Assembly: GCF_013009555.1 (NCBI RefSeq)
Contig: NZ_CP046176.1
Span: forward strand, 2,697,501-2,761,500
DNA: 64,000 nucleotides
Reading direction: 5' to 3'
Source: Phocaeicola dorei
GTDB lineage: Bacteria; Bacteroidota; Bacteroidia; Bacteroidales; Bacteroidaceae
Notes under the pieces: generated by a model
What the model saw: the letters and a program-made list of their open reading frames with translations, nothing else
Told to the model about the DNA's origin: nothing
The model's database searches: none
Part shown: positions 1 through 26,742 of the stretch, in pieces
Layout: each line of letters starts with the position of its first letter
Position numbering within the stretch: the stretch's first letter is position 1
Made by a program: the position numbers and the translations under genes

Positions 1-11
1 CCTTTATTTTT

Positions 12-1259: not shown

Positions 1260-1269
1260 TCAATATAGA

Positions 1270-1314
1270 ACACGGACAGAAGAACAAACCTGCATTTTCC
1301 CTCTCTGTCCGTGT
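1270..1314 (+). terminator. Hairpin after DUF1015 gene
   Basis: An 11-base perfect inverted repeat (ACACGGACAGA, 1270-1280, with its complement at 1304-1314) separated by 23 bases starts 11 bases after the stop codon. No long T run follows, so termination strength is uncertain. Confidence 0.55.
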
Positions 1315-1431
1315 CCGTTCATTTCATATAATTTTTTCAGCAGCTACAGGTGATATAAATTCTTTTATATTTGTTGATTAGGTATAATCTAAATAAATAG
1401 ATGTTAGATTGAAAGAATAAAGCACTTTTCC

Positions 1432-1462
1432 TTTGTTTATTGCTAACAAATATCTAATTTCG
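1432..1462 (+). promoter_or_regulatory. Promoter of the split DMT transporter
   Basis: TTTG at 1432-1435 and TAATTTCG at 1455-1462 with a 19-base spacer fit the Bacteroides -33/-7 pattern with one mismatch. It would start transcription about 22 bases before the ATG at 1492. After the rearrangement described below this promoter now also faces the ybaK-like and beta-lactamase genes. Confidence 0.6.
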
Positions 1463-2223
1463 CGCCGATTTTAAAGCGTGTAATAAAAACGATGATTAAC
1501 AACAAGACTAAAGGATTTCTCCTTGGGGCAATCGCAGCAGCCAGCTACGGCATGAACCCACTGTTCACCCTTCCTCTTTATAGTGCAGGAATGAGCGTAG
1601 ACTCGGTATTATTTTATCGCTATGCACTGGCTATAGTTGTACTAGGTATCATGATGAAGATGCAGAAACAATCTTTTGCCATTAAGAAAGCGGATGTGCT
1701 GCCACTTTGCATCATGGGGTTGCTGTTCTCATTCTCTTCCCTGTTTCTCTTTATGAGTTATAACTACATGGATGCCGGTATCGCATCCACCATATTGTTT
1801 GTCTACCCGGTACTGGTAGCTATTATTATGGCTGTAGTATTTAAGGAAAAAGTATCGCCGGTCACTATGTTTTCCATAGCGCTGGCCTTTGTGGGAATTT
1901 CCTTGCTTTGTAAAAGTCCGGGAGGACAGACACTCAGCTTGGTCGGGATTACTTTTGTCTTTTTATCATCCTTAGCTTATGCTATCTATATAGTTGGTGT
2001 AAACCGTTCTTCCCTGAAGGATATGCCTATAGCCAAGCTTACTTTCTATGTCCTGCTTTTCGGTCTGTCTGTTTATGTGGTGCGATTGAAGTTCTGTACG
2101 GGATTGCAGCTTATCCCTACACCCTTGTTATGGGTAAACGCAATTTCACTGGCTGTTTTTCCTACTGTTATTTCGTTGGTGACTATGACAAAGGCCATAC
2201 ACTACATTGGCTCCACACCCACT

Positions 2224-2243
2224 GCTGTTCTCTGTTTTTTGTT
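2224..2243 (+). repeat. Left copy of breakpoint repeat (half of a former terminator)
   Basis: GCTGTTCTCTGTTTTTTGTT occupies the point where the DMT reading frame leaves its family. A copy with one extra T lies at 19856-19876, beside the other half of that gene. The copies are in direct orientation now. Undoing the inversion brings them head to head as the two arms of a hairpin ending in a T run, which is what a terminator looks like. Confidence 0.8.
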
Positions 2244-2250
2244 ATATTTG
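2243..2250 (+). promoter_or_regulatory. -7 box of the ybaK-like gene
   Basis: TATATTTG matches TAnnTTTG exactly and is 22 bases before the ATG at 2273. Its normal upstream partner region lies across the inversion breakpoint, so any -33 element has been replaced by transporter sequence. No TTTG is found at the right distance. Confidence 0.5.
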
Positions 2251-2272
2251 TAGATATATCCAAGAATATAGC

Positions 2273-2797
2273 ATGGATAGAGATATAAAGAACATAGTTA
2301 TGGATAAAGGTTATGTACAGAATACCATTTTTGAATTATTGAGCCGTTTAGGCATCGGTTATGAAAAGCTGGAACATTCTCCTATAATAACGATGAAAGA
2401 AGGAAGTGAAATAGCATATAAACTAGGCAGTACTTCATGCAAAAATCTGTTCTTATGCAACAAAAGGCAAGAATATTTTATGTTAATGCTTCCTGCCGAT
2501 AAGAAGCTATCGGCAAAAAATGTTGCAAGGCAAATCGGCAGCCCACATCTTTCTTTTGCTTCTGCAGAAGACATGGAAAGGTTACTTCATACTTATCCGG
2601 GTGCTGTCAGTGTATTAAGCCTTATTTATGATAAAGAAAAAAGAGTACAGCTTTTAATAGATAAGGGTTTGATGAATGTGACTTATATAGGTTGTCACCC
2701 TTGCACCAATACTTGTAGTTTGAAAATTAAAATGGAGGATATCCTCACTGTATGGTTGCCTGCGACCGGACATGATGATATGAAAGTTATAGAATGA
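2273..2797 (+). CDS. YbaK/ProX-type aminoacyl-tRNA deacylase
   Basis: A 174-residue protein of the YbaK/prolyl-tRNA editing family, which hydrolyses mischarged tRNA (for example alanyl- or cysteinyl-tRNA-Pro) in the cytoplasm. Family marks are the KNLFL block near residue 57, whose lysine is the usual substrate-binding residue, and a GCHPCTNTCSL segment near the C-terminus that matches the HPxxNT pattern of ProX/PrdX members. The ATG at 2273 is preferred because the -7 box lies just upstream and an earlier in-frame start would fall inside the transporter remnant; ATG 2300 is an alternative. It overlaps the next gene by four bases (ATGA), so the two are probably cotranslated. Substrate specificity is not visible. 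Confidence 0.85.
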   Translation: MDRDIKNIVMDKGYVQNTIFELLSRLGIGYEKLEHSPIITMKEGSEIAYKLGSTSCKNLFLCNKRQEYFMLMLPADKKLSAKNVARQIGSPHLSFASAEDMERLLHTYPGAVSVLSLIYDKEKRVQLLIDKGLMNVTYIGCHPCTNTCSLKIKMEDILTVWLPATGHDDMKVIE

Positions 2798-3774
2798 TAA
2801 AATACTATTTAAGAAGAGCTATGAATATAATAAAGATTTGTAAACCCATGTCTTCTTTTAGTTCTTTAATAAAAAAAGAACTCTTATATATCTGTATATT
2901 CTGTGGAGCACTGTGTGGATGCATTCAGAGGAAGGCCCAAAACCCTTTAGAACCGTTAAAAACAGAGATTCGACATATTATTAAAGATAAGAAAGCAACT
3001 ATAGGAGTGGCTCTGATACTAGACGGAGAAGATACGCTGGCCGTAAATAATGCCGAAAAATATCCCATGATGAGCGTTTATAAGTTTCATCAGGCATTGG
3101 CTGTATGTGATTACCTGCAAAAACGGCATATTCCACTTTCCACTTCCCTATATCTTGATAAAAGGTATTTCAAACCGGATACATACAGCCCTTTGCGTGA
3201 TAAATATCCCCAAGGTAATTTGGAACTTCCGATTAGTGAACTTTTAGCTTATACAATGCAGTTAAGTGACAATGTAGCCTGTGATATTTTATTCGATTAT
3301 ATAGGTGGTGTAAACGTGGTGGATGAATACATTCATTCATTGGGAATAAACGATGTTTCTATAACTACTACCGAAGATGAGATGCATCAAGACATGGATG
3401 ATTGTTACAAAAACTGGACAACACCAATGGAAGCAGCCAATCTATTGGAACTTTTTATGACTCAAGATTCCATGAAAAATGAATATACAAATTTTCTAAA
3501 ACATATTATGATAGAGTGTGAGACAGGTAAAGACAGACTACCTGCTCCCCTTCCCGAAAGTGAAGTCAAGATAGGACATAAGACAGGAACTTCCGATAAG
3601 AATGAACGGGGGGAATACATTGGCATCAATGACATTGGTTTTGTAATTCTACCTGATGGGAACCGATACGTAGTAGCCGTATTTGTCAAAGACTCAAAAG
3701 AAAATATGGAAACGAATACTAAGATCATCTCTGATATTTCGGCTGCTATTTACCGATATGCCAGGAATCGTTAA
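2794..3774 (+). CDS. Class A beta-lactamase, PER/CepA-like branch, predicted lipoprotein
   Basis: A 326-residue serine beta-lactamase. All motifs are present: SVYK at 94-97 (nucleophile S94, K97), SDN at 158-160, TEDEMH at 193-198 (E194 as general base, H198 where most class A enzymes have Asn, as in PER enzymes) and KTG at 264-266. This is the subgroup that includes the Bacteroidales cephalosporinases. The N-terminus has a hydrophobic stretch ending ALCGC at 39-43, which resembles a lipobox with C43 as the lipidated residue, so it may be membrane anchored. Three starts are possible (2794, 2821, 2848). The first overlaps the ybaK-like stop by four bases, and the last gives the most ordinary signal peptide. 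The substrate range cannot be read from sequence. The inversion has put it downstream of the transporter promoter. Confidence 0.9.
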   Translation: MIKYYLRRAMNIIKICKPMSSFSSLIKKELLYICIFCGALCGCIQRKAQNPLEPLKTEIRHIIKDKKATIGVALILDGEDTLAVNNAEKYPMMSVYKFHQALAVCDYLQKRHIPLSTSLYLDKRYFKPDTYSPLRDKYPQGNLELPISELLAYTMQLSDNVACDILFDYIGGVNVVDEYIHSLGINDVSITTTEDEMHQDMDDCYKNWTTPMEAANLLELFMTQDSMKNEYTNFLKHIMIECETGKDRLPAPLPESEVKIGHKTGTSDKNERGEYIGINDIGFVILPDGNRYVVAVFVKDSKENMETNTKIISDISAAIYRYARNR

Positions 3775-3834
3775 AATAGTGCTATTTTGTACTGTCTATG
3801 AAAATAAAGACAAGAATGTCATAAATATAATATT

Positions 3835-4290
3835 ATGGATTATCACATCGTTAAAATATCTAGAAATAAAAAGCAATATCTGGATTTATTATTGCTTGGG
3901 GATGAACAGGAAATAATGATAGACCGATATTTGGAGCGCGGTGACTTGTTTGTATTGGAAGATAACGGGATAAAAGCTGTTTGTGTTGTAACAAAAGAAG
4001 GTCCGAAAATTTGTGAATTGAAGAATATAGCGGTTACCCCTAGTGCCCAACGACAAGGATATGGTAGAAAACTAATAAATTACCTGATAAACCATTACTC
4101 AAAAGAATATACTCAGATGATGGTGGGAACGGGAGACGTTCCCGGCACTCTTGCATTTTATAAAAGTTGCGGTTTTGAATATTCTCATTGTATAAAAGAT
4201 TTTTTCACGGAGAATTACGATCATCCTATCATTGACAATGGGGTTTTACTAAAAGATATGATTTATTTGAAACGTAAAATAGGGTTTTAA
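3835..4290 (+). CDS. GNAT family N-acetyltransferase
   Basis: A 151-residue single-domain acetyltransferase. The acetyl-CoA pyrophosphate-binding signature QRQGYGRKL lies near residues 70-78, after the beta-strand CELKNIAVTP, and the FYKSCGFEYS block near 112-121 is the usual C-terminal GNAT motif. It lies 60 bases after the beta-lactamase on the same strand and could be read with it, although the gap has no clear terminator or promoter. The substrate is unknown; antibiotic, amino acid or protein N-terminus are all possible. Confidence 0.85.
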   Translation: MDYHIVKISRNKKQYLDLLLLGDEQEIMIDRYLERGDLFVLEDNGIKAVCVVTKEGPKICELKNIAVTPSAQRQGYGRKLINYLINHYSKEYTQMMVGTGDVPGTLAFYKSCGFEYSHCIKDFFTENYDHPIIDNGVLLKDMIYLKRKIGF

Positions 4291-4388
4291 AAGAGTGGAA
4301 ACGATCAAATCCTTACTAAATTTAAACATTATTTTCTATCACTTTCAATGAATCGGACAGAAGAATAATTCTTTTTATGAATAATCTA

Positions 4389-4419
4389 TTTACAATTCAA
4401 TAAAATAAATGTATCTTTG
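4389..4419 (+). promoter_or_regulatory. Promoter of methyltransferase gene
   Basis: TTTA at 4389-4392, a 19-base spacer and TATCTTTG at 4412-4419 match the Bacteroides promoter pattern (-33 with one mismatch, -7 exact). Start of transcription near 4426 gives a 5' untranslated leader of about 175 bases. Confidence 0.7.
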
Positions 4420-4459
4420 CAATATGTTAAAAACTCATATATCGGATTTGGTGTCGTAA

Positions 4460-4581
4460 ACAATCTGTTTTTATAGAATAGATTGTCCAGTCGTTTTTAC
4501 TCTCAGAATGTCTTTTGAGAGCAATTTTATATTATTTATAATTGATCTTTTAATCCGCATACAAATAATGGGATTGTATGC
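4460..4581 (+). promoter_or_regulatory. Structured 5' leader with three hairpins
   Basis: Three consecutive inverted repeats lie between the promoter and the methyltransferase ATG. Hairpin 1 has an 11-pair stem (4460-4470 with 4476-4486, including wobble pairs). Hairpin 2 has nine pairs (4500-4508 with 4513-4521). Hairpin 3 has eight perfect pairs, GCATACAA with TTGTATGC (4557-4564 with 4574-4581), ending 18 bases before the start codon. I do not recognise this as a named riboswitch class. A cis-regulatory leader is the simplest reading. Confidence 0.55.
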
Positions 4582-4599
4582 CCTCAATGTTTTACAATA

Positions 4600-5394
4600 A
4601 TGAATAACGATAATAATCATAATACAATCCAAGAGTTCGACGTAAATTTAATCTGTGATTTCTTTTTAAATACAAACCGGCAAGGTCCCGGAAGTCCCGA
4701 AGCAACCTTAAAAGCACTAAGCTTTATAAATAATCTCACTGTTCAATCCCTTATCGCCGATCTCGGTTGTGGGACAGGAGGTCAGACAATGGTATTGGCA
4801 CAACATACACCGGGAAGTATTACAGGACTCGACTTCTTTCCGGAATTTATTGAATGCTTCAACAGGAATGCCGAAAAGTTAAATTTACAGGATAGAGTAA
4901 AAGGTGTAGTCGGCTCAATGGATGCCCTTTCTTTTGAAAAAGAATCCCTAGACTTGATTTGGTCGGAAGGAGCTATTTATAATATCGGTTTTGAACGAGG
5001 ATTGAACGAGTGGCGCAATTATTTGAAACCGGGAGGATACCTTGCCGTTTCTGAAAGTGTCTGGTTTACCGATCACCGTCCGGCAGAGATTCATGATTTC
5101 TGGATGAATGCTTACACGGAAATAGATACAATTCCTAATAAAGTAGTACAAATACAAAAAGCGGGATATATTCCCGTTGCTACGTTCATTCTTCCGGAGA
5201 ATTGCTGGACAGAACATTATTATGTTCCGCAGGCCAAAGCCAAAGAAATGTTTATCAAGAAGTATGCAGGGAATAAAACAGCTGAAAAACTGATGGCATC
5301 CATCTGCCATGAAGCTGAATTATATAGTAAGTATAAAGAATACTATGGATATGCATTTTTTATAGCAAAGAAAATAAATCCCTTTCAAGGTTAG
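4600..5394 (+). CDS. Class I SAM-dependent methyltransferase
   Basis: A 264-residue cytoplasmic Rossmann-fold methyltransferase. The SAM-binding motif [10 protein letters not shown] lies near residues 54-63, followed by the acidic loop GLDFFPEF and the motif IV region [13 protein letters not shown]. It is the same type as small-molecule methyltransferases known from Bacteroides, for which the natural substrate is generally not established; I cannot name one here. It is monocistronic: its own promoter and structured leader lie upstream and a terminator at 5436-5478 downstream. The long folded leader suggests regulation after transcription initiation. Confidence 0.88.
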
Positions 5395-5435
5395 TGGAAA
5401 GAAGAGTAAAGTGACCTTCTAAAACATATTCAAGT

Positions 5436-5478
5436 AGTGCAGACATTCTGTTCAAGGAGTATCTGCACTCGCTTTTTT
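5436..5478 (+). terminator. Rho-independent terminator
   Basis: AGTGCAGA (5436-5443) pairs with TCTGCACT (5462-5469), followed by six T at 5473-5478. It closes the methyltransferase unit. Confidence 0.8.
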
Positions 5479-5483
5479 ATATA

Positions 5484-5699
5484 TCAAGCATTTCCATTAA
5501 AGCGCTTTTCAGTACATAGGCACTTATACCCAGTCGTCTTTTTCACCGCCTCATTCAGATAAACAGATGAGACATTGAGCAGCAAAGCATATTCTTGTGG
5601 GCGTTTTAATGAATGGAATTTTACAGCCCATAAGGCTTTAAATTGTTTTATGATAATAGTTTTAATTACCCTCTTTTTAAAACGTTTTCTAATTGACAA
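5484..5699 (-). pseudogene. AraC-family regulator remnant
   Basis: A 71-codon stretch whose second half (LLNVSSVYLNEAVKKTTGY) matches the first helix-turn-helix of AraC/XylS DNA-binding domains, where NVS-x-YLNE-x-VK-x-TTG is typical. The second helix-turn-helix is missing and the frame soon ends, and there is no sensor domain upstream. It is a decayed fragment and not a functional regulator. It lies between the methyltransferase terminator and the hxlR-type gene, on the same strand as the latter. Confidence 0.65.
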
Positions 5700-5755
5700 A
5701 GTAATTCATTTTCAATCAGAAAACCGAATTGATAAAGAATCATATCTTGTTGAAC

Positions 5756-6109
5756 TTAGTCTTCCATTCCTAATATTTTCTTCATTTGCGGTCGGAATCC
5801 ATCTCCCCATTTTTCTAATTGTTCAATAATGGGAAGCAGTGTTCTACCTTGCTCTGTAATGGAATATTCTGTATGGGGAGGAAGTTCCGAAAAAATCTTT
5901 TTCTGTATCATGCCATGAATCTCCAGTTCTTTCAGTTGTTGGTTGATTACCCTTGGGCTGGCATCATCAAAGTAACGATGAAGTTCACTCGGGCGCTTCG
6001 GGCCTTTGTCCAATTCTTGAATAATGCAGCTTTTCCATTTTCCACCAATCACTTCCATCGCTATTTTCACACCGCAGTTTATATCAAAAGGTATTTTCTT
6101 TCTGTACAT
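5756..6109 (-). CDS. HxlR-family winged-helix regulator
   Basis: A 117-residue winged-helix DNA-binding protein. The HxlR signature IGGKWKSCIIQEL lies near residues 22-34, SPRVINQQLKELE forms the recognition-helix region, and EYSITEQGRTL forms the wing. An upstream in-frame ATG (6139) would lie within three bases of the predicted -7 box, so ATG 6109 is chosen. The gene is divergent from the arginase-like gene. A perfect 12-base inverted repeat lies between them and is the likely operator. A C near the N-terminus (FDINCGVK) is the conserved cysteine that some HxlR members use for redox or aldehyde sensing. Confidence 0.88.
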   Translation of the reverse strand: MYRKKIPFDINCGVKIAMEVIGGKWKSCIIQELDKGPKRPSELHRYFDDASPRVINQQLKELEIHGMIQKKIFSELPPHTEYSITEQGRTLLPIIEQLEKWGDGFRPQMKKILGMED

Positions 6110-6126
6110 AAATCTTCTTTTTTCTG

Positions 6127-6157
6127 CAAAATTAATCATATTGAAATAACATAGAAA
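6127..6157 (-). promoter_or_regulatory. hxlR promoter
   Basis: On the minus strand TTTC (6157-6154), 19 bases, then TAATTTTG (6134-6127). The exact -7 box fixes the start codon at 6109 and not at 6139. Confidence 0.65.
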
Positions 6158-6183
6158 GAATAGCTTCTACTCTTTTCATGTTA

Positions 6184-6222
6184 TAGGGATAAATTATTCA
6201 TATACTGATTAATTTATCCCTA
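6184..6222. promoter_or_regulatory. Candidate operator between hxlR and arginase-like gene
   Basis: TAGGGATAAATT (6184-6195) and its perfect complement AATTTATCCCTA (6211-6222) are separated by 15 bases. The right arm touches the -33 box of the arginase-like promoter, and the left arm lies upstream of the hxlR promoter. This fits a dimeric winged-helix regulator controlling the divergent gene; inference from position and symmetry. Confidence 0.6.
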
Positions 6223-6254
6223 CTTGCGCAAACCATCGGGTAATTATAAATTTG
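6223..6254 (+). promoter_or_regulatory. Promoter of arginase-like gene
   Basis: CTTG at 6223-6226, 20 bases, TAAATTTG at 6247-6254 (exact -7). Transcription would begin near 6261, which excludes the upstream in-frame ATG at 6224 and supports ATG 6302. Confidence 0.7.
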
Positions 6255-6301
6255 CAGACAGATTCAGATATAGGAATAATGGGATATATAATAATGATAT
6301 A

Positions 6302-7270
6302 ATGAAAAAGTGGTTATCTCTGATAATATTACTGGCTGTTAATGTGATTTCTATTAATGCACAACAGAAAAATTCAATTAATAATCAAAGTATGGAAAAG
6401 AAAACAAAAACAATTCGTTTGATTTATCCGCAATGGCAAGGAGGTGATATTGCTCGGTGGATTACTGAAATAAAAGATCCCGAAGCAGCATCAAAGGGAT
6501 ACTTCTTAGGGGCAGAATTGCTTAACTTCTTGGCTCCCGACAGCAGTCAAGAAACACTGACAGTTCCCATTTCAACAGAAATTACAGAACGTAGAAAAAA
6601 GGACGGTGTACTAGACCGCGACATTATTGTGAAACAGACTAAAGCTGCTCTTGACTTGTTGCGTATCAGTGATCCTGATAAAATAGTAACTCTTGGAGGA
6701 GAATGTTCTGTCAGTGTCGTTCCGTTTACCTACCTTGCAGAGAAATATAAAGATGATGTGGCAATGATTTGGATTGATGCCCATCCTGATATAACACTTC
6801 CCGGAGATATGTACAGCGGATTCCATGCCATGGCTGTTACTGCCTGCATGGGGAAAGGCGACAAGGAAATCCTTTCCAAGCTACCGGCCCAAATAGCCCC
6901 CTCAAAGATTCTGCTCGTAGGATTGCGTGATTGGGAACGTGATGAAATAAAAGTCCGCCAGAAACAATATGGTATAAAACATCTTACTCCGGAAGATGTA
7001 GCACAAAATAGTAATGCTATATATGAATGGTTAAAATCATGTGGAGCATCCCGCGTGTTAATTCATTTTGATATGGATGTGCTCGACCCTGCCGAAATTA
7101 TAGCAGCCGTAGGGGTAGTTCCCGATGGAATGAAATTGGCAGAAGTGGTCCGCGTTATTAATGATATTGCCAAAGAAAAAGAAATAGTAGGTCTAACCGT
7201 TGCCGAACCGATGCCACGGATTGCTATCAGAATTAAAGAAATGTTAAATCAATTACCTTTGTTGAAATGA
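6302..7270 (+). CDS. Arginase/ureohydrolase family protein, predicted exported
   Basis: A 322-residue member of the ureohydrolase fold (arginase, agmatinase, formimidoylglutamase), which uses two Mn2+ ions to hydrolyse a guanidino or related group. Ligand motifs are DAHPD (159-163) and DMDVLDP (257-263). The first motif is GGECS at 132-136, with Cys135 where arginase has a metal-binding His, so activity or substrate may differ. Residues 1-20 form a signal peptide ending SINA, suggesting a periplasmic protein. A downstream ATG at 6392 would give a cytoplasmic version without it. The promoter position supports 6302. It is divergent from hxlR and probably under its control. The substrate is unknown. 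Confidence 0.82.
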   Translation: MKKWLSLIILLAVNVISINAQQKNSINNQSMEKKTKTIRLIYPQWQGGDIARWITEIKDPEAASKGYFLGAELLNFLAPDSSQETLTVPISTEITERRKKDGVLDRDIIVKQTKAALDLLRISDPDKIVTLGGECSVSVVPFTYLAEKYKDDVAMIWIDAHPDITLPGDMYSGFHAMAVTACMGKGDKEILSKLPAQIAPSKILLVGLRDWERDEIKVRQKQYGIKHLTPEDVAQNSNAIYEWLKSCGASRVLIHFDMDVLDPAEIIAAVGVVPDGMKLAEVVRVINDIAKEKEIVGLTVAEPMPRIAIRIKEMLNQLPLLK

Positions 7271-7383
7271 TAAGGAACAGATAAAAAGACATTTAGAATA
7301 ACCTGTCAAAATCAATTCTCCGGAGAAGTCCAATATTTTATGGGCAAAGTGGTTCTAGATTACTTTATCCTTTAAGCCAAAAA

Positions 7384-7420
7384 ACATTTTCAGAGAGGGC
7401 AAAATCCTCCCTGAAAATGT
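7384..7420. terminator. Bidirectional hairpin
   Basis: A ten-base stem (ACATTTTCAG, 7384-7393, with 7411-7420) continues inward for four more pairs after one mismatch. It sits between the convergent arginase-like and NUDIX genes and probably serves both. The rest of 7271-7383 shows nothing I can identify. Confidence 0.7.
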
Positions 7421-7435
7421 ATTTGGGTGATTGAA

Positions 7436-7990
7436 CTATGAATGAGAATATAAAGCAAAATACTTCCAAAGCGGTGCTGCCATCAATGATTGTTTTACTT
7501 CATCATTCAATAACAACGCTTTTATTTCTTCTTCACTCAGCAAATGCACTGTCAAATCTTCAGTTTCTTCCAAATGCTGGGTGGAGATTCGTTCTACCTC
7601 CGTAGCCAGATAACAATGAGTGATATTTGTCATGGTGCTGGCATTTGCAGAGACGGTCATAAGTTTTGTCCAATTTCCATTACCATACCCTGTTTCTTCG
7701 TACAATTCGCGTTGGGCAGAAAGCAAAGGTTCTTCTCCGGTTTCACAAACTCCGGCACAAATTTCATAACGTGTTTCTTTTATTCCGTGACGGTATTGGC
7801 GTACTAATACGAATTTACCCTCTTTGGTGATAGCAATTACATTTACCCAATCAGGATATTCCAAAATATAATATTCAGGAATTTCAACTCCTGTAGGTAA
7901 TTTAACCCGATCACGGCGTGCGGTCAGCCAAGGGCGGCGGATAAGATATTCACTTTCAATAATCTCCCATTTTCTATCGTCTGTGTTCAT
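7436..7990 (-). CDS. NUDIX hydrolase (ADP-ribose pyrophosphatase-like)
   Basis: A 184-residue cytoplasmic hydrolase of nucleoside diphosphates linked to another group. The NUDIX box runs from residue 80 (GVCETGEE ... RELYEETGYG) with all canonical positions G, E, REL and EExG, which hold the catalytic Mg2+. The N-terminal sheet with a YPDWVNVIAIT strand, and the length, resemble ADP-sugar or ADP-ribose pyrophosphatases, so that substrate class is likely but not proven. The gene stands alone, with a -7 box upstream at 8063-8070 and a shared hairpin downstream. Confidence 0.85.
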   Translation of the reverse strand: MNTDDRKWEIIESEYLIRRPWLTARRDRVKLPTGVEIPEYYILEYPDWVNVIAITKEGKFVLVRQYRHGIKETRYEICAGVCETGEEPLLSAQRELYEETGYGNGNWTKLMTVSANASTMTNITHCYLATEVERISTQHLEETEDLTVHLLSEEEIKALLLNDEVKQSLMAAPLWKYFALYSHS

Positions 7991-8062
7991 ATAATAAGTT
8001 TTTTGTTTTATACTCTACATTATAAAATTTATTCTTGTTAGTGGCTTAATTGATTATATCGG

Positions 8063-8070
8063 CAAAGGTA
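8063..8070 (-). promoter_or_regulatory. -7 box of NUDIX gene
   Basis: TACCTTTG on the minus strand matches TAnnTTTG and is about 70 bases before the ATG at 7990. No good TTTG is seen at the -33 distance. Confidence 0.5.
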
Positions 8071-8158
8071 CATTAATCCATTTGCATTAACTATAACACT
8101 CCCATTCTTTTTGAAGAAATTCAGGAATGAATTATGTAAATGATGAAAAGACTTTAGC

Positions 8159-8166
8159 TAACTTTG
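8159..8166 (+). promoter_or_regulatory. -7 box of Gp37/Gp68-type gene
   Basis: TAACTTTG matches the consensus exactly and lies 37 bases before the ATG at 8204. The -33 element is not evident. Confidence 0.55.
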
Positions 8167-8203
8167 CAGACAATAATAAAATGATAAATTTTATTCAAAC
8201 AGA

Positions 8204-8971
8204 ATGGAAAATAGAATAAGTCCGGAGTCTTCTCTATGGAATCCTTGGCATGGCTGCCATAAGCTAAGTACAGGTTGCCGGCATTGTTATGTATATCGCG
8301 GAGATAGTAAACATGGGAAAGACAGTTCCATAATAACCAAAACCGGACAATTCAATCTGCCCGTGAGGCGGAAAAAGGATAAGACTTACAAGATCCCTTC
8401 CAGAAATCTCGTCTATACTTGTTTTACCTCTGATTTTCTGATAGAAGAAGCCGATGAATGGCGTATAGAAGCATGGAAAATGATGCGGGAACGATACGAT
8501 CTTCATTTCTTGTTTATAACTAAACGTATAGACCGGCTCAGCCAATGTCTGCCTCCGGATTGGGGGGACGGGTATGATAATGTTACCATTTGTTGCACCA
8601 TGGAAAATCAAGAAAGAGTGGATTACCGTCTTCCTCTTTATAAAGCAGCTCCTGTAAAGCATAAAATCATTATCTGTGAACCATTGTTGTCCGCTATAAA
8701 CTTCAAGGGAGAACTTGGTACATGGGTAGAACAGATTGTGGTAGGTGGAGAATCAGGTAAAGAAGCGCGCATATGTAATTATGACTGGGTATTGGACATT
8801 CGTCGGCAATGTATAGAAAATAATATTAGCTTTTGGTTTAAACAAACTGGATACAGATTACTAAAAGGAGAACGTGAATATAAAATAGCCCGCCAATTTC
8901 AACATACACAAGCTAGAAAAGCAGGAATAAACTATTCTAGGGGATCTAACAGCAATAATTATAGTGATTAA
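8204..8971 (+). CDS. Gp37/Gp68 (DUF5131) family protein
   Basis: A 255-residue protein of the phage Gp37/Gp68 family. The N-terminus has the family pattern WNPWHGC...GCRHCY (cysteines at 18, 25 and 28 in the numbering used here), a three-cysteine cluster resembling radical-SAM iron-sulfur motifs, and later conserved segments FLFITKR and VGGESG. Members occur in phages and mobile islands, often next to a three-Cys-motif partner protein (TcmP). No such partner is present here, and the neighbours look chromosomal. The biochemical function is not established. Confidence 0.8.
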   Translation: MENRISPESSLWNPWHGCHKLSTGCRHCYVYRGDSKHGKDSSIITKTGQFNLPVRRKKDKTYKIPSRNLVYTCFTSDFLIEEADEWRIEAWKMMRERYDLHFLFITKRIDRLSQCLPPDWGDGYDNVTICCTMENQERVDYRLPLYKAAPVKHKIIICEPLLSAINFKGELGTWVEQIVVGGESGKEARICNYDWVLDIRRQCIENNISFWFKQTGYRLLKGEREYKIARQFQHTQARKAGINYSRGSNSNNYSD

Positions 8972-9152
8972 GAAAGTGTTTCATTTTGAAAGAGTTCCTT
9001 TTCATTTTGGTAAGCTTTAGTTTTTAATGACACGCTTATGGCATTGTAACTAAGCCGTTTGTTTTATTGGTATATTCTTTGTCTGTTATAAAAGGACTGA
9101 TATTAAATATGCGGAAAATTGTTATATTTACACTAATATGATAAAGTAACAA

Positions 9153-10280: not shown

Positions 10281-10292
10281 AAAATAAAAGTT

Positions 10293-11762: not shown

Positions 11763-11771
11763 TCACAGCAC

Positions 11772-11803
11772 AGGGGAGAGAATCTTTCAATAAGAGCTCT
11801 CCC
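11772..11803 (+). terminator. Possible hairpin after the kinase gene
   Basis: GGGGAGAG and CTCTCCCC face each other across 16 bases shortly after the stop codon at 11762. There is no T run. It lies just outside the left end of the insertion sequence. Confidence 0.4.
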
Positions 11804-11919
11804 CCGCTGCTTTGGGGGCGTAAAATAAACTGTGTCATGCGCTGTTTTTCTTTCAAGCTCATCGGTCGGGGATCGGCCAGCGCCAAGGGGGTGCACCAGC
11901 ACTCCCGACGAGCGTAAAA

Positions 11920-13134: not shown

Positions 13135-13139
13135 AAAAA

Positions 13140-13190
13140 AACTGTGTTAGCAAAGTTAATACTTTATTTGTTTGCTTTGCTGACACAGTT
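13140..13190 (-). repeat. Palindrome at the right end of the IS
   Basis: ACTGTGTTAGCAAAG (13140-13154) and CTTTGCTGACACAGT (13176-13190) are inverted repeats with one mismatch and a 21-base loop. The outer arm contains the terminal inverted repeat. The position just upstream of the transposase ATG suggests a hairpin that blocks read-through expression or a transposase-binding site. Confidence 0.65.
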
Positions 13191-13231
13191 TAAATTACAG
13201 CCTCGCTGCTTTTGAACCAAGCCGGAAAAGT

Positions 13232-13900
13232 TTACTCCAACCTGTGAACGGTAATATCGCTAAAATCTTGTAATAATGTCAGTAACATACCTTCATCATT
13301 GTATTTCTTAGATTTTATAACCATTGTAACATAATAGGTTGTTACTTCTCCCAACCTCTTTTCGTCCAATTGATAGGAAACAATATTGTATTCCTTGGAA
13401 TTGAATTTCTTGGCCATACGGTTCAGTGTTTCTTTATTGTCTGTAGAGAACTCTACCATGGAACTTTTCATACCTATACTTTTAAAAAGATAGCTAAGTG
13501 CCTCAAGACCAATCAGCGTAAGGATTGTTGCTGAGATTCCCAGCCAGTACATACCGGCTCCAATGGCCAGACCGATGCCCGAAGTAGCCCAAATTCCGGC
13601 AGCGGTAGTAAGTCCGCGCACGATTTGTTTTTGAAAAATAATAGTACCCGCTCCAATAAAACCGATACCACTGACAACCTGTGCGGCCACACGACTCGGG
13701 TCCAAGTCTATCCCCTCCATCTTCACTACTTCCATAAAACCATATTGTGATACAATCATAATGAGAGCACTTCCCAGTGATACTAGAAAATGGGTACGGT
13801 AACCGGCTTCTTTAGCACGATATTCCCTATCCAGACCAATAACAGTACCCAAAGCGCCTGCCACAAACAATCTCAAAATAAAATCCCACGTCATGCTCAT
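13232..13900 (-). CDS. MgtC/SapB family membrane protein
   Basis: A 222-residue inner-membrane protein. The N-terminal domain has about five hydrophobic segments with the MgtC signature GTVIGLDREYRAKEAGYRTH (residues 18-37). The C-terminal 80 residues form a soluble ACT-like domain ending SDITVHRLE. Family members are linked to Mg2+ limitation, control of F1Fo-ATPase and survival under stress; here the role is inferred only. A purine-rich AGGAGG lies just before the ATG, which is strong for this organism. It starts 15 bases after the rmuC stop, so the two form an operon. Confidence 0.88.
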   Translation of the reverse strand: MSMTWDFILRLFVAGALGTVIGLDREYRAKEAGYRTHFLVSLGSALIMIVSQYGFMEVVKMEGIDLDPSRVAAQVVSGIGFIGAGTIIFQKQIVRGLTTAAGIWATSGIGLAIGAGMYWLGISATILTLIGLEALSYLFKSIGMKSSMVEFSTDNKETLNRMAKKFNSKEYNIVSYQLDEKRLGEVTTYYVTMVIKSKKYNDEGMLLTLLQDFSDITVHRLE

Positions 13901-13915
13901 ATTGAAATCCTCCTT

Positions 13916-15151
13916 TTATTCATCGTCTTCATCATCAGTCAGTTCGGGCAAACTCAACATTCGTTGGCTGTCTTCTGCCGGAAGGGCTTCTACCTGGCGT
14001 AATTTACGTTCTATGGCACGAGTACGTTTCCCCATAACTTCCTCTAACTGGTCTCCTGCATTCTGTAGATTTTTCTGTACCTTTTCCAGCAATCCTCCAA
14101 ACTTTCCGAATTCGGTCTTTACTGCCCCTAACACATTCCATACTTCGCTTGTTCGTTTTTGAATGGCCAGCGTACGGAATCCCATTTGCAAACTATTCAG
14201 GATAGCTCCCAGGGTGGTAGGACCTGTAACCACTATCTTCCAGTCTTTCTGCAACATTTCCACCAACGCGGTCCGGCGGATCACTTCTGCATAGATGTTT
14301 TCGAATGGCAGAAACATAATGGCAAAATCTGTTGTAAAAGGTGGGTCTACATATTTATCGTGAATATCCTTTGCCATTTTTTTAATTGTGATTTCCAGTT
14401 GACGGGATGAAGTTTCAATCAATGCGGCATCTCCGGCTTCGTATGCATCCTGATATTGTTCATATACATCTTTGGGAAATTTGGCATCCACAGGTAAATA
14501 TACAGTATCATTATTATTTTCCTTTCCCGGAAGTTTAATGGCGAACTCCACAAATTCCGTTGCATTTTTCTTGGTTTTGACATTCGCCTCATATTGTTCC
14601 GGACTCAGCATCTGATCCAATAAGGCACCTAATTGTACTTCTCCGAATGTACCCCGTGTCTTCACATTACTTAAAACTTTTTTCAATCCTCCTACATCCT
14701 GTGCCAGACCCTTCATCTCTCCCAATCCTTTTTGTACATTCTCCAGCTGCGAACGTACTATCTCAAAGGATTGTCCTATACGTTCATTCAATGTTTTCTG
14801 TAATTTTTCTTCTACCATTTGCCGCATGTCATCCAATCGTTTTTCCGTACTTTTCACCAAAGCTTCCTGTTGCTTGCCCATTGCTTCAAATTTTTCCCGT
14901 TGCATTTCATTACCGGTCAGCAGGTTTTTATGCAAAGTATCCTGCATATTACGGATAGAATAATTCAAGGTTTGATTCAGTTCGTTACGAAGTTCGCGAA
15001 TATTTTTTCCCAGTTCGTCCCGGTTTTCTTTCATTTCTTCGCGTAGCAATCCTTCCAGACGTTCGGTTTGCAGACGATTGTTTTTAGTAAGTGCGATTAC
15101 AATATTAATTATCAGCAGGATAATAATTACGGTTAATAAAATTTCTGTCAT
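13916..15151 (-). CDS. rmuC: RmuC family protein
   Basis: A 411-residue protein of the RmuC family, which limits recombination at inverted repeats in E. coli and is thought to contain a nuclease-like core. Residues 4-22 form a membrane anchor, about 35-150 a long coiled coil rich in K, E, R and Q, and about 150-370 the conserved RmuC domain with PVDAKFPKDVYEQY and DFAIMFLPFENIYAEV. It ends in an acidic tail DDEDDE. A -7 box lies 20 bases before the start, giving a very short leader. It is first in an operon with mgtC. Confidence 0.92.
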   Translation of the reverse strand: MTEILLTVIIILLIINIVIALTKNNRLQTERLEGLLREEMKENRDELGKNIRELRNELNQTLNYSIRNMQDTLHKNLLTGNEMQREKFEAMGKQQEALVKSTEKRLDDMRQMVEEKLQKTLNERIGQSFEIVRSQLENVQKGLGEMKGLAQDVGGLKKVLSNVKTRGTFGEVQLGALLDQMLSPEQYEANVKTKKNATEFVEFAIKLPGKENNNDTVYLPVDAKFPKDVYEQYQDAYEAGDAALIETSSRQLEITIKKMAKDIHDKYVDPPFTTDFAIMFLPFENIYAEVIRRTALVEMLQKDWKIVVTGPTTLGAILNSLQMGFRTLAIQKRTSEVWNVLGAVKTEFGKFGGLLEKVQKNLQNAGDQLEEVMGKRTRAIERKLRQVEALPAEDSQRMLSLPELTDDEDDE

Positions 15152-15170
15152 GATTCTTGTTTATTTTGAG

Positions 15171-15210
15171 CAAATGTAGCAAAAAGCCATGAATTTAATC
15201 GTTATATTTG
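15171..15210. promoter_or_regulatory. Divergent promoters for rmuC and the Cof-type gene
   Basis: Minus strand TACATTTG (15178-15171) faces rmuC, and plus strand TATATTTG (15203-15210) faces the phosphatase gene. Both match TAnnTTTG exactly and their upstream regions overlap. Confidence 0.65.
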
Positions 15211-15246
15211 CAGCGAATTTGGCAAAAGCACTCCATTAAATAGTAT

Positions 15247-16053
15247 ATGAAGTATAAATTATTAGTTTTAGACCTAGACGGAACGTTGACCAATAAAAAG
15301 AAAGAGGTAACGGAACACACACGTCGTACACTTATCGAAGCGCAAAAGCGCGGAGTAAAAATTGTTTTGGCATCGGGACGTCCCACATACGGTGTGGCTC
15401 CACTGGCTGAGATCTTAGAGCTGCAGAAATACGAAGGTTATATACTTTCGTATAACGGAGGTGAGATCATAGACTGGAAAACCGGTGAGATGATGTACGA
15501 GAATGTGCTCGATCCGGATATATTACCTTACCTGTATAAATGTGCCACCGACAACCATTTTGCTATCGTCACTTACGATGGAAAATATGTATTGACTGAA
15601 TATCCGGAAGATGAATATGTATTGAAAGAAGCTATTCTGAATGTGATGACTCCCAAGAAAGTGGATCATTTTCTGGAGGCAATAAAATTTCCTATTGCCA
15701 AATGTCTGATTGTAGGTGAACCTACGCGGCTTGCAGTGCTTGAAAAAGAAATGTACGAACATTTGAAAGATCGTATGGGGGTATTCCGTTCCGAACCTTA
15801 TTTTTTGGAATTGGTTCCTAAAGGTATTGATAAAGCACAATCACTGGCCGTATTGTTAAAAGAAATCGGTATGACAAAAGAAGAAATGATTGCCGTTGGT
15901 GATGGTTTTAACGATCTTTCTATGATACAATATGCCGGATTGGGGGTAGCAATGGCCAATGCTCAAGAAATAGTCCGTCAAAACGCCGACTACATCACCC
16001 TTTCTAATGAAGAAGATGGTGTAGCCGCGGTAGTAGAGAAATTTATTCTTTAG
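15247..16053 (+). CDS. Cof-type HAD-IIB phosphatase
   Basis: A 268-residue cytoplasmic haloacid-dehalogenase-type phosphatase. Motif I is DLDGTLTNKK at 8-17 with the aspartate nucleophile and acid/base pair, motif II includes ASGRPT, and motif III/IV is VGDGFNDLSMIQYAG near 215-229. The large cap between residues 85 and 190 is the IIB type. Substrates of this family are sugar phosphates, nucleotides or flavin-related phosphates; which one cannot be told. It ends 11 bases inside the convergent DUF2148 gene. Confidence 0.9.
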   Translation: MKYKLLVLDLDGTLTNKKKEVTEHTRRTLIEAQKRGVKIVLASGRPTYGVAPLAEILELQKYEGYILSYNGGEIIDWKTGEMMYENVLDPDILPYLYKCATDNHFAIVTYDGKYVLTEYPEDEYVLKEAILNVMTPKKVDHFLEAIKFPIAKCLIVGEPTRLAVLEKEMYEHLKDRMGVFRSEPYFLELVPKGIDKAQSLAVLLKEIGMTKEEMIAVGDGFNDLSMIQYAGLGVAMANAQEIVRQNADYITLSNEEDGVAAVVEKFIL

Positions 16054-16573
16054 GTTTCCGGTCAAAGAAAGGATTTTTAGAGGATGCGCTGACAGGGATG
16101 GCATAAACCTGGGTGCATCCTTCCAGCCAGTTCAGACGCTGTGCTGCTAATCCGGCCGAGAACATGACCCGTGTGTCCACCCTGTTGTCTGCTGCTGTAG
16201 CACAAGCTGATCCGATAGCAATGCCCACATCAACACTATTGATAGCACATGGCACTCCTTCTTTGCGAGACACACAAGTGGCATATCCACAATGACCACA
16301 ATTCAATCCTTGCGCCTGTTCGTGTGTACCTATTAACAGGACACATTCTGCATTCAGAATATTTTCCGCATCGCGCAGGAAGAATTTCATTCCATGCTCC
16401 GCAACCATTTTCACCATCATTTCCGATAAAATATTGATATTACCATCCGTCACCATGGCTATTTCAATAATATCAACACCTTTTCCTTTGGGAGCAGTAC
16501 GCGCTGCTGTCATCATTTGTCGGGCCACATGCAGAACATGTTCATGGCGGCTTTCTCTTTCATTCAATATCAT
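16043..16573 (-). CDS. DUF2148 cysteine-rich protein
   Basis: A 176-residue protein of the DUF2148 family, sometimes called ferredoxin-domain protein. Residues about 92-107 hold the cysteines NCGHCGYATC and a further C in GVPCAINSVD, likely to bind an iron-sulfur cluster. The GIAIGSACATAADN stretch is typical of the family. No signal peptide is seen. Its job is unknown. Its 3' end overlaps the convergent phosphatase gene by 11 bases. Confidence 0.85.
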   Translation of the reverse strand: MILNERESRHEHVLHVARQMMTAARTAPKGKGVDIIEIAMVTDGNINILSEMMVKMVAEHGMKFFLRDAENILNAECVLLIGTHEQAQGLNCGHCGYATCVSRKEGVPCAINSVDVGIAIGSACATAADNRVDTRVMFSAGLAAQRLNWLEGCTQVYAIPVSASSKNPFFDRKPKE

Positions 16574-16866
16574 ATAAATCTTAGTTATAAGTTAGCTATT
16601 AATACAAAATTAGTGAATATGAATGATATAAGGCTCTTGCTTTAAGCCTAAAAAGTATAAAAAGAGTCACCGGTTAAAAAAATATCAAAATAAAAAGAGA
16701 AATATAGTGGATAATCCAATTATTTATCGTTCCTTTGACAACGGAATATAAAAAGATAGTTTTTTCGATTGACTCAATTCATCTCACACTTGAACCGTTT
16801 CTATTCTTCTAACTAAATTTTTAAATTCAAAGTTTACTTAATTATTTATTTATCAATTTTTATTTT
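16574..16866 (+). other. Intergenic region upstream of the RRM gene
   Basis: 293 AT-rich bases without an open frame. No exact TAnnTTTG box is found close to the RRM gene. A long leader is plausible, since RRM protein genes in this group are often controlled at RNA level, but I see no clear fold. Confidence 0.4.
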
Positions 16867-17112
16867 ATGAATTTGTATATTGGAAACCTTAACTATAATG
16901 TTAGGGAAGGTGATTTGAGAGGTGTAATGGAAGAGTATGGAACAGTAGCTTCAGTAAAACTTATTACTGATCGTGAAACACGTCGTTCTAAAGGTTTTGC
17001 TTTTGTAGAAATGCCTAATGATGGCGAAGCTAAAGAAGCTATCAAGCAATTGAACGGTGCAGAATATGTAAACCGTACTATGGTTGTAAAAGAAGCACTT
17101 CCTAAAGCATAA
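16867..17112 (+). CDS. Small RRM-type RNA-binding protein
   Basis: An 81-residue protein made of a single RNA recognition motif. RNP2 is LYIGNLNY (residues 3-10) and RNP1 is KGFAFVEM (about 43-50), both with the aromatic residues that stack on RNA bases. Bacteroides species carry several such proteins that act as global RNA chaperones in place of Hfq; assignment to a specific Rbp member is not attempted. It is monocistronic with a strong terminator downstream. Confidence 0.93.
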   Translation: MNLYIGNLNYNVREGDLRGVMEEYGTVASVKLITDRETRRSKGFAFVEMPNDGEAKEAIKQLNGAEYVNRTMVVKEALPKA

Positions 17113-17137
17113 GGAATTAGACATTCCATGTCACATG

Positions 17138-17172
17138 ATGGCGATAGAGATTCACTCTATCGCCATTTTTTT
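17138..17172 (+). terminator. Rho-independent terminator of RRM gene
   Basis: A 12-base perfect stem (17138-17149 with 17155-17166), a five-base loop and a T run. Confidence 0.9.
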
Positions 17173-17301
17173 CTTGAACAGCTTTCTAGTTTGAAAATAC
17201 ATGAAAGGGTTATTGATAAGGAAACGGACATCTGTTTTGTCAGAATGTCCGTTTCTTGTTTAGTATTTGTTCTTTAGAAAGCTATTGCTCCGAAGGCGAA
17301 T

Positions 17302-19623
17302 TTACTCCACTCCTATTTCGTCAACAAACAGAAAAGCTTTTTCGCCAGGCATGGAATGCCATGCGGGAAGTTTCGGAGTAACTTCTGCTATGATTTTAAT
17401 ATAGCGGGCTTTTACTTTATCAAAGGAAACAGAGTCTTTGCGGCTTTGCATTTTAGTTCCTTTTTCCACAACGGGAAAATTTTCGGAGGCTACCCTGCGG
17501 AAATTTTTCCCGTCCTCAGAAACTTCCACCTTCAGACCTGTTGCACCAAAGATAGCATCGCCTGTGTTCAACATTGTGTTTACAAAAACTGAAGATACTT
17601 CCTTAGGCTCAAGTAAATCAAGGGTCACATTCATATCTGTCCCGTAGAAACCAATCCAACGTCCTGAGCGATAATTCATATCCCCATATAATCCGTCTAT
17701 CAAGGTACTTCCTCCTTTAAAAGTATATGATTTATGAGGAATGGTATTCAAGGTAACCGGTCTCATTGTGGCTGCATTAAAATGTATTTCCTCCTTACTT
17801 ATCTGACTAGTACCCTGCGGACGAACTGCAATGGCTTGTATGATAACATCTTTATCCACTTGTATAGTGTCGGTATACAATGGGGATTGCACATCGGGAA
17901 CGCTGCCATCCAATGTATAATGTATTTCCGCATCATCAAAAGTCTGAAAAGCAATCTTGGCTTTTCCTTCATCGGGAGCCGGAACGATATCAATGTTCAC
18001 ATCATAAATATCCTGACGAAAATCATAACCTCTATCCCGGTAAATAGCCAGCAGAGCTGGTAAACGTTTCAAAAAACTGTCGAAATTTTTATGTAACGGT
18101 TCCGTCCATTGAATCTCGGACAAGGCAGCCATACGAGGAAGAATTTGCCATTCCATCTTCAAACTGTCACGCGTCCATTCTGTCCAGATACATCCTTGAG
18201 TACCGATGATATATTTTCGTTCATCCTCTGCCAATTCATTAGAAACAGGTTCAAATGTATAGACACGTTCAAGGCTTTTAGTCCCTTTTATCCGATTGTA
18301 AGTAGGATTGCTGAAATAAAGAAACTGAATAGGAGTCATAATTGCATCATGGTGCAGACGGGCGGCTTCGATACCACCTTTGACACCAGTCCATGACATT
18401 ACTGTGGCACCTGGAGCCAATCCTCCCTCCAACATCTCATCCCAGCCCAGCATTTTACGCCCTCTGTCATTAATAACTTTGCCTACCTCGGACATGAAAT
18501 AGGTCTGTAATTGATTCTCCTTGCTGTGTTTTGGTGTATCTTTCAAACCCAGTTCCCGAATTTTAGCTTGACATGCAGGGCATTTTTCCCAACGTACTTT
18601 CGGACATTCATCCCCACCAATATGGATATAAGGAGATGGAAAGATGTCCATAATTTCATTCAATACATCTTTAGCAAACTGTAAAGCCCGGTCGTTTCCT
18701 CCACAAAGCACATCAGGGAATACCCCCCATTTACAAGGAATCTCGTATGGACCTCCCGTACAACCTAATTCCGGATAGGAAACCAAAGCTCCCATCATAT
18801 GTCCCGGAAGGTCAACTTCGGGAATTACAGTAATAAAACGGTCAGCGGCATACTTGACAATCTCTTTTGCTTCTTCCTGTGTATAAAAACCGCTATGAGG
18901 AGTTTCATCATAGATCTGGGTTTCACGGTCAATCAACGTACGTGGACGTATCGAACCTATTTCCGTAAGTTTGGGATATTTCTTGATTTCAATTCTCCAA
19001 CCTTGGTCTTCAGTCAGATGCCAATGAAAATAATTGATATTGTGCAATGCCAGCATATCAATGATTTGTTTCAGATAAGAAACCGGGAAATAATGGCGGC
19101 CCACGTCTACCATAAAACCGCGATAACCGAAACGAGGATAGTCATTAACAGTTCCCACCGGGATGGCAGCGGATACCTGTTTGTTTTTGGTCAATGGCAA
19201 AGCCTTATAGAGCGTTTGTATTCCATAAAAGACCCCAGACTCACTTCCTCCATTCAAATGAATGTTTTCAGAAGTTACCTCCAGTTGATACCCCTCTTTG
19301 TTGGTAATGGAACTGTCAACCGCCAAGATTATGGAATTCTTCTTTACGGCTTCAGTTGTTGTCCGGACGGTAATTCCCGTAGCCTCTTTAATATAAGAAG
19401 CTAAAAATTCTGCCGTCCGTTGCAACTTTTCATTGCCTTCCGGATAGACAATACCGGTTTGCGGATTAATAACAAAAGGGTGGGCTTGAATGTCTTGACT
19501 TACTTCTTGGGGCTGCGGAATGACATTCAGGTTTCCGATTTCTGTTTTTGTAGGAGAACATGCGGACAGACCAAATACCATCCACATTCCCACTCCTGCC
19601 CATTGCATCAGTTGTTTTTTCAT
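17302..19623 (-). CDS. GH20 beta-N-acetylhexosaminidase, lipoprotein
   Basis: A 773-residue exo-enzyme that removes terminal beta-linked GlcNAc or GalNAc from host or bacterial glycans. It begins with a lipoprotein signal (GLSACS), then a GH20b domain, and the catalytic barrel with HIGGDECPKVRW, where the D-E pair is the catalytic set. After about residue 530 come a chitobiase C-terminal type sandwich (YTLDGSVPD) and a discoidin-like module to the end. A longer frame with an upstream ATG at 19659 exists, but that ATG lies inside the -7 box, so 19623 is used. Before the inversion it followed the intact DMT transporter. No SusC/SusD pair is nearby. Confidence 0.93.
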   Translation of the reverse strand: MKKQLMQWAGVGMWMVFGLSACSPTKTEIGNLNVIPQPQEVSQDIQAHPFVINPQTGIVYPEGNEKLQRTAEFLASYIKEATGITVRTTTEAVKKNSIILAVDSSITNKEGYQLEVTSENIHLNGGSESGVFYGIQTLYKALPLTKNKQVSAAIPVGTVNDYPRFGYRGFMVDVGRHYFPVSYLKQIIDMLALHNINYFHWHLTEDQGWRIEIKKYPKLTEIGSIRPRTLIDRETQIYDETPHSGFYTQEEAKEIVKYAADRFITVIPEVDLPGHMMGALVSYPELGCTGGPYEIPCKWGVFPDVLCGGNDRALQFAKDVLNEIMDIFPSPYIHIGGDECPKVRWEKCPACQAKIRELGLKDTPKHSKENQLQTYFMSEVGKVINDRGRKMLGWDEMLEGGLAPGATVMSWTGVKGGIEAARLHHDAIMTPIQFLYFSNPTYNRIKGTKSLERVYTFEPVSNELAEDERKYIIGTQGCIWTEWTRDSLKMEWQILPRMAALSEIQWTEPLHKNFDSFLKRLPALLAIYRDRGYDFRQDIYDVNIDIVPAPDEGKAKIAFQTFDDAEIHYTLDGSVPDVQSPLYTDTIQVDKDVIIQAIAVRPQGTSQISKEEIHFNAATMRPVTLNTIPHKSYTFKGGSTLIDGLYGDMNYRSGRWIGFYGTDMNVTLDLLEPKEVSSVFVNTMLNTGDAIFGATGLKVEVSEDGKNFRRVASENFPVVEKGTKMQSRKDSVSFDKVKARYIKIIAEVTPKLPAWHSMPGEKAFLFVDEIGVE

Positions 19624-19648
19624 AGTGGAAAATTTATAATTACAAGGG

Positions 19649-19656
19649 CAAAGATA
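19649..19656 (-). promoter_or_regulatory. -7 box of the GH20 gene
   Basis: Minus-strand TATCTTTG, exact consensus, 26 bases before ATG 19623 and just after the stop codon of the DMT remnant. Confidence 0.65.
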
Positions 19657-19668
19657 CAAAATCCGATC

Positions 19669-19848
19669 TTATTTGCCAGTATGCCTTAACCGAATCTTGC
19701 TTTTTTTCAGCAATGTTTTTCCTCCTATAATTAGAGTTACGGCAGTAATCACCATCAAAATGCCCAGAATAATGCGCGGTGTCAGCTGCTCTCCAAAAAT
19801 CAGTACTCCGAAGAATAAAGCTGTAACAGGCTCCAAAGCACCTAGAAT
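19669..19848 (-). pseudogene. DMT/EamA transporter, 3' part of the split gene
   Basis: A 59-codon open stretch plus stop, without a start codon. It reads ILGALEPVTALFFGVLIFGE (first 20 residues), then two more hydrophobic spans and a basic tail KTLLKKSKIRLRHTGK. This is the C-terminal part of a DMT transporter: GALEP opens the ninth span and FGE-LTP precedes the tenth. It complements exactly what is missing from the gene at 1492-2253, and it is on the opposite strand, as an inversion requires. The fragment has no start of its own and probably is not translated. Confidence 0.92.
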
Positions 19849-19855
19849 AGGAAAT

Positions 19856-19876
19856 GCTGTTTCTCTGTTTTTTGTT
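19856..19876 (+). repeat. Right copy of breakpoint repeat
   Basis: Twenty of 21 bases equal the copy at 2224-2243 (one extra T here). On the minus strand it follows the GH15 stop codon by about 20 bases and reads as the left arm of a terminator whose right arm is now at 2224-2243. Confidence 0.8.
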
Positions 19877-19894
19877 TTTCGGCAAGGCTTTTCC

Positions 19895-21682: not shown

Positions 21683-21701
21683 GGTTATTTTTTTTGTAAT
21701 G

Positions 21702-25661: not shown

Positions 25662-25678
25662 CCTTCCTGAGTAAACAG

Positions 25679-26029: not shown

Positions 26030-26070
26030 CAGAAATAATACACATAAAAGAAAAACAGAGTAAATAGAAA

Positions 26071-26706: not shown

Positions 26707-26742
26707 TATGATTGCTCCCTCTTCCTATTCTAATAATAAAAC

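Follow-up and report, generated by a model that had tools for sequence, protein, structure and literature searches.

Near the left end of the window (the whole stretch of 64,000 nucleotides from Phocaeicola dorei that was analyzed), two parts of one EamA/DMT transporter gene stand on opposite strands at the two ends of a 17,622-bp block (Table 1). The 5' piece runs after codon 245 into the foreign tail VLCFLLYL, which ends at a stop codon at 2251-2253. This piece scores 75.5 bits against the Pfam EamA model, above the cut-off of 28.2, and the detached 3' piece alone scores 26.4 bits, slightly under it. Just inside the left end of the block lies a pair of overlapping genes, a ybaK-like gene with a tRNA_edit domain and a class A beta-lactamase gene (bla). 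The latter passes the NCBIfam subclass A2 model (354.9 bits, cut-off 320), but does not reach the cut-off of the CepA model (358.9 bits, cut-off 660). The right end of the block holds a GH20 hexosaminidase gene and the 3' transporter piece, and a GH15-domain gene follows as the right-hand neighbor. One copy of the 16-mer TTCTCTGTTTTTTGTT is found by each junction, the two being in direct orientation.

Table 1. Features at the two ends of the inverted block and within it (positions in the window)
Feature	Position	Strand	Remarks
EamA/DMT transporter gene, truncated	1492..2253	+	codons 1-245 up to 2226, then 8 foreign codons and stop
Left inversion junction, 2226/2227	2225..2227	.	2-bp ambiguity, CT at 2225-2226
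Inverted block, 17,622 bp	2227..19848	-	orientation relative to P. vulgatus and P. sartorii
16-mer TTCTCTGTTTTTTGTT, left copy	2228..2243	+	identical to 19861-19876; putative 3' arm of a pre-inversion hairpin
TATATTTG, candidate Bacteroidales -7 promoter box of ybaK-bla	2243..2250	+	possible chance match
ybaK-like gene (tRNA_edit domain)	2273..2797	+	absent from P. vulgatus and P. sartorii searches
Class A beta-lactamase gene (bla)	2794..3774	+	4-bp overlap with ybaK
IS256-family element	11816..13200 (ends approximate)	-	transposase 11920-13134; target repeat of about 8 bp; empty site in P. vulgatus
GH20 hexosaminidase gene	17302..19623	-	start placed at ATG; directly downstream of the DMT gene in relatives
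DMT gene, detached 3' part	19669..19848	-	last 59 codons (from ILGALEP) and stop
Right inversion junction, 19848/19849	19848..19850	.	2-bp ambiguity, AG at 19849-19850
16-mer TTCTCTGTTTTTTGTT, right copy	19861..19876	+	putative 5' arm of a pre-inversion hairpin (in GH15 sense)
GH15-domain gene	19895..21682	-	right-hand neighbor; collinear with P. vulgatus

The first-pass annotation had placed codons 1-245 of the transporter at 1492-2226, followed by foreign sequence, and the 59 missing codons at 19669-19848 on the opposite strand; both sets of coordinates proved exact. It had also read the joined pieces as one in-frame gene, and such a gene exists in P. vulgatus, where both parts are contiguous in a single DMT gene of 915 bp. 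As the 5' piece (735 bp) and the 3' piece (180 bp) add up to precisely this length, no base was lost or gained on the gene side. When the two pieces were searched separately by tblastn, they abutted (n / n+1) in all ten loci tested of the 21 found; five of these ten belong to genomes that were also part of the DNA alignment, and the remaining eleven loci are mostly distant. Compared with P. vulgatus, the 5' piece shows 16 synonymous and 4 other codon differences and the 3' piece 2 synonymous and 1 other, with no stop in either. In view of these few coding changes, the split appears recent. The transporter without its last 59 residues is presumably inactive.

A second complete copy, or paralogues as separate sources of the fragments, had been named in the first-pass annotation as grounds for doubt. 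A DNA search finds each piece as a single copy in the 5,625,488-bp single-contig genome, which rules out a paralogue origin of the two pieces. Among the closest alleles the intact form is present, as judged by residues past the junction. P0005 (304 aa) and P0018 (292 aa) carry this genome's own residues and run unbroken through the junction, to the end and to near the end, respectively. P0004 (266 aa), likewise with this genome's own residues, passes the junction by 17 residues, and P0003 (254 aa) passes it by three before continuing into an unrelated tail. The tail VLCFLLYL occurs in none of seven proteins examined among the best 120 of 7528 matches in the protein collection. This collection shows clusters without their members and possibly omits records near the window; it therefore gives no frequency of the truncated form.

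In order to place the block in relation to other genomes, 60 genomes (own included) were searched, 20 of which contain DNA similar to the 5' DMT piece. Stretches from six relatives were aligned on the DNA level, and five of them are informative, as G017 has no alignment at the junction. In P. vulgatus ATCC 8482 (G011) the order is as follows: window positions 1-2231 forward, 19850 back to 2956 on the opposite strand, and 19889 onwards forward, with the flanks 1-2231 and 19889-30000 thus collinear. P. sartorii (G020) shows the same order. It is missing approximately 16077-16644 and 17320-17784 of the block and 20423-26267 of the right flank, which may be assembly gaps. Its DMT match does not begin before residue 22, and one base is missing from the locus near the start (L048, ~10001-10063), so that the P. 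sartorii copy may itself be frameshifted or misread there. In P. faecalis, P. massiliensis and an uncultured relative (G016, G002 and G005) the 5' piece continues directly into DNA corresponding to the window from about 19850.

All alignable stretches of the block longer than 100 bp lie on the opposite strand. P. vulgatus has four of them, with 13,428 alignment columns against a block length of 17,622 bp, and P. sartorii has five, with 14,487 columns. Two tiny matches of 30 and 38 bp have the other orientation. At the scale of the whole block, chance is not an issue. The block is reversed, both flanks are collinear and the pieces of the cut gene are complementary, as in an inversion with two breaks. 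The ancestral order at the gene end is seen in relatives by DNA alignment and by tblastn. At the other end, GH15 and bla are adjacent in P. vulgatus and P. sartorii, but with a different spacer. Because relatives combine the joined gene with the opposite block order, the window carries the derived, inverted state. The inversion is thereby confirmed as real, with the derived order here and both breakpoints placed to the base. This agrees with the first-pass annotation, which had proposed that 2227-19848 was turned round and had pointed to relatives for an uninterrupted gene and the opposite order; its reading is upheld by five genomes in the DNA alignment and by ten tblastn loci. Its figure of 18 genes in the block was not upheld, as we counted 15 ORFs with Pfam support (7 + 8), the transposase of the IS256-family element being included. 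Not mentioned in it were the 2-bp ambiguity of the junctions, the direct 16-bp repeat, the ybaK/beta-lactamase operon behind the truncated gene, and the DNA at 2227-2955 and 19849-19888 that differs from P. vulgatus and P. sartorii.

Among the papers listed by literature searches aimed at the inversion or its species, none describes it, as judged from the listings. GC skew of the block was considered as a sign of recency and is uninformative (+0.008 in the window vs -0.015 in P. vulgatus). Viral contigs were searched as a source of sister-strain DNA; two patterns had no match, and a third gave an 18-bp match to two contigs without wider similarity.

The arrangement is known here from the assembly, and an assembly or chimaera artefact could in principle have created it. 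We consider this extremely improbable, given a genome assembled as a single contig and two reciprocal junctions that lie at unique sequence and share the same 2-bp ambiguity. The breakpoints 2226/2227 and 19848/19849 of the first-pass annotation, with their gap-free frames, were borne out to the base, with an ambiguity of 2 bp that is identical at both junctions and reads CT or AG, depending on the strand. Adjoining it, the two break sites are alike over CTnTTCT.

Mobile and site-specific elements were weighed as the cause of the flip. The IS256-family element in the block is absent at the same place from both P. vulgatus and P. sartorii, and the genome contains five full copies that are nearly identical, which would fit an inversion driven by this element. 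The left breakpoint, however, is about 9.6 kb away from it and the right one 6.6 kb; the element is surrounded by a short target repeat whose empty site is seen in P. vulgatus, and neither junction shows an IS end. We therefore give an IS-driven inversion next to no weight.

In favor of a reversible, programmed inversion by a site-specific recombinase (an inverton), a 2-bp core would be compatible with a serine recombinase. Promoters that invert in front of resistance genes are also described for Bacteroidales, including P. dorei (PMC8748976). Against such a switch, the longest 25 of 262 inverted repeat pairs in 1-24000 (22-29 nt, 70-86% complementary) include none that joins the breakpoints, and the 16-mers, being direct, would support deletion and not inversion. 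None of the 40 integrase-domain and 6 resolvase-domain matches of the genome falls within the 64-kb window. The extended right-hand site has no further genome copy at up to 2 mismatches (a reversed control also gave one match), and what stands on the ancestral side is the interior of a coding gene. As no inverted repeats, IS ends or recombinase genes were found at the breakpoints, a phase-variable switch is very unlikely.

As a result of the inversion the truncated DMT gene now reads towards ybaK, whose ATG at 2273 follows the DMT stop after 19 bp. The candidate box TATATTTG in this leader fits the -7 consensus TANNTTTGY as quoted in PMC8748976. A chance match is possible, since 88 TANNTTTG sites are found on both window strands and about 3% of leaders of this length would have one by chance. 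No TTTG -33 box is found at the right distance from it in the ybaK leader. The leader (2227-2290) folds strongly by itself (-17.9 kcal/mol, z -4.3; one of 200 shuffles equals it). The left 16-mer pairs in this fold with the region where ybaK starts, and the fold could possibly act as a new translation control after the flip.

A close ybaK is found only in the own genome among the 60 genus genomes searched, with two others matching at 32% identity. The gene is common elsewhere, as cluster P0124 holds 530 member sequences. Two homologues, P0122 and P0123, are 100% identical over the query, but the same leader is preceded in them by another sequence. Strains thus vary in the DNA that precedes ybaK. 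The peptide upstream of ybaK in P0122 and P0123 matches a repeat of about 240 bp, of which the own genome has two intergenic copies that are 90% alike (L071, G000:C1:4389304-4389571, and L072, G000:C1:2298023-2298261). The repeat ends in a TATATTTG box directly upstream of genes, is matched in part by three of six other genomes (P. sartorii, P. vulgatus and IMSAGC_004), and is possibly a promoter-carrying repeat family. Many of the ybaK homologues listed (P0125-P0131, P0134-P0138) are broken or fused at differing points. P0130 and P0137 have a foreign tail or head in common, as do P0129, P0134 and P0135. P0126 is fused to an integrase domain and P0125 to sequence that resembles the end of a DUF1015 protein. 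It looks as if mobile elements often insert in ybaK.

On the GH15 side, the corresponding points of bla and GH15 are separated by 193 bp of different DNA in P. vulgatus and P. sartorii. In place of this spacer the window has the ybaK-like gene and a diverged 5' end of bla, and blastn matches neither 2227-2955 nor 19849-19888 to the stretches from these two relatives. P. massiliensis also has a GH15-bla pair, in which GH15 is 97% identical to the window and the spacer is P. vulgatus-like. That pair lies about 212 kb from the P. massiliensis DMT gene, which is 78% identical. From this comparison of sequences, the GH15-bla pair (2956-3774, 19889-21682) has probably moved between species.

The two 16-mers may have been the arms of a single hairpin before the flip. 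An identity of 16 bp between the flanks of the junctions is not reached by any of 20,000 random pairs of 40-bp pieces (longest, 12), and at up to 2 mismatches the 16-mer was found three times in the window, twice exactly, against an expectation of 0.19. When the order before the inversion is restored, the 49-nt core has a predicted energy of -22.3 kcal/mol vs a shuffle mean of -4.9 (sd 2.2), and none of 500 shuffles is as good. The predicted hairpin has 19 pairs, one bulged base and a 6-nt loop, and the break would lie no more than 2 bp from the loop. Being A-rich on the left, with a run of T on the right, it resembles a terminator downstream of the GH15 gene. The hairpin order is seen in none of the genomes examined, and the spacers of P. 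vulgatus, P. sartorii and P. massiliensis lack the hairpin. As P0122 and P0123 have other DNA upstream of the same ybaK leader, the hairpin need not be the sole ancestral state. The direct 16-bp repeats now flank the whole block, and a crossover between the copies would delete it.

We consider it probable that one inversion of 17,622 bp, conservative and non-homologous, arose in this lineage and joined a break in the DMT gene to a break at the hairpin tip. The first double-strand break would have fallen between codons 245 and 246 of the intact gene. The second would have fallen at the tip of the terminator-like hairpin that separated the GH15 gene from the ybaK/beta-lactamase operon, and the ends would then have been rejoined crosswise on the 2-bp match (CT) within the CTnTTCT similarity. 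An alternative is a complex event that inverted the block and replaced the GH15-bla spacer at the same time, by template switching for instance; one 16-mer would then have been copied from the other during repair, and the two would not be the split arms of one hairpin. In favor of it, the stretches without a blastn match border both junctions, and the varied DNA upstream of ybaK supports it, although equally the reading of an often-rewired spot. One reciprocal exchange instead fits the clean state of the two junctions, their shared 2-bp ambiguity and the lack of any loss on the gene side, and, ybaK being common elsewhere, its gain need not be linked to the inversion. We hold the complex event to be unlikely.

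Under the single reciprocal inversion, the flip would have swapped the neighbors of operons. The truncated DMT gene would now lead to ybaK-bla, and the GH15 transcript, its hairpin lost, would read towards the 3' DMT fragment and the hexosaminidase gene. The latter has its own TATCTTTG box at 19656 and so need not depend on either neighbor. One may go further and read the flip as an adaptive operon swap, in which a break at an insulating hairpin would put ybaK-bla close behind the stop of the truncated gene and alter the sequence upstream of the candidate -7 box. The site would then be a point from which a chromosomal class A beta-lactamase is controlled and which is rewired repeatedly, as the two other upstream sequences with the same ybaK would suggest, and the transporter a collateral loss. 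We regard this adaptive reading as rather improbable.

The inversion is a real but ordinary kind of genome rearrangement. Its value lies in being clean, polarized, base-exact and gene-breaking in the absence of long repeats, and in coming from a gut genus that is common. Two questions can be put to it as a natural test: whether DNA in Bacteroidales breaks at hairpin tips, and whether resistance-type operons are rewired by inversions beyond the known invertible promoters. If neither is true, it would represent a neutral or mildly harmful mutation on the strain level.

In a chemostat study of Salmonella, verified inversions had junction matches of at least 12 bp, under a filter that favored long matches (PMC3411829). 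The match here differs in being 2 bp, or 6 of 7 bp if the mismatched position is included. Like those spontaneous inversions, the present one is small and involves short inverted matches without an IS or a dedicated recombinase. The palindromes studied in E. coli, which are 85-246 bp long, give inverted duplications when SbcCD and RecA are missing, and only artificial palindromes longer than natural ones were seen to be cleaved in the course of replication (PMC3315005). A hairpin-forming sequence as the break site would be common to both, but here the predicted stem has 19 pairs and the product is a simple inversion. As the E. coli palindromes are far longer and yield other products, breakage at the short hairpin is posited by analogy only. 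The invertible resistance-gene promoters of Bacteroidales adjoin an invertase gene (PMC8748976), unlike the present window, which has no recombinase-domain match and in which no inverted repeats were found at the ends of the block. Like those promoters, the inversion described here alters the sequence upstream of a resistance-type gene with a TANNTTTG box, and Phocaeicola are the hosts in both cases.
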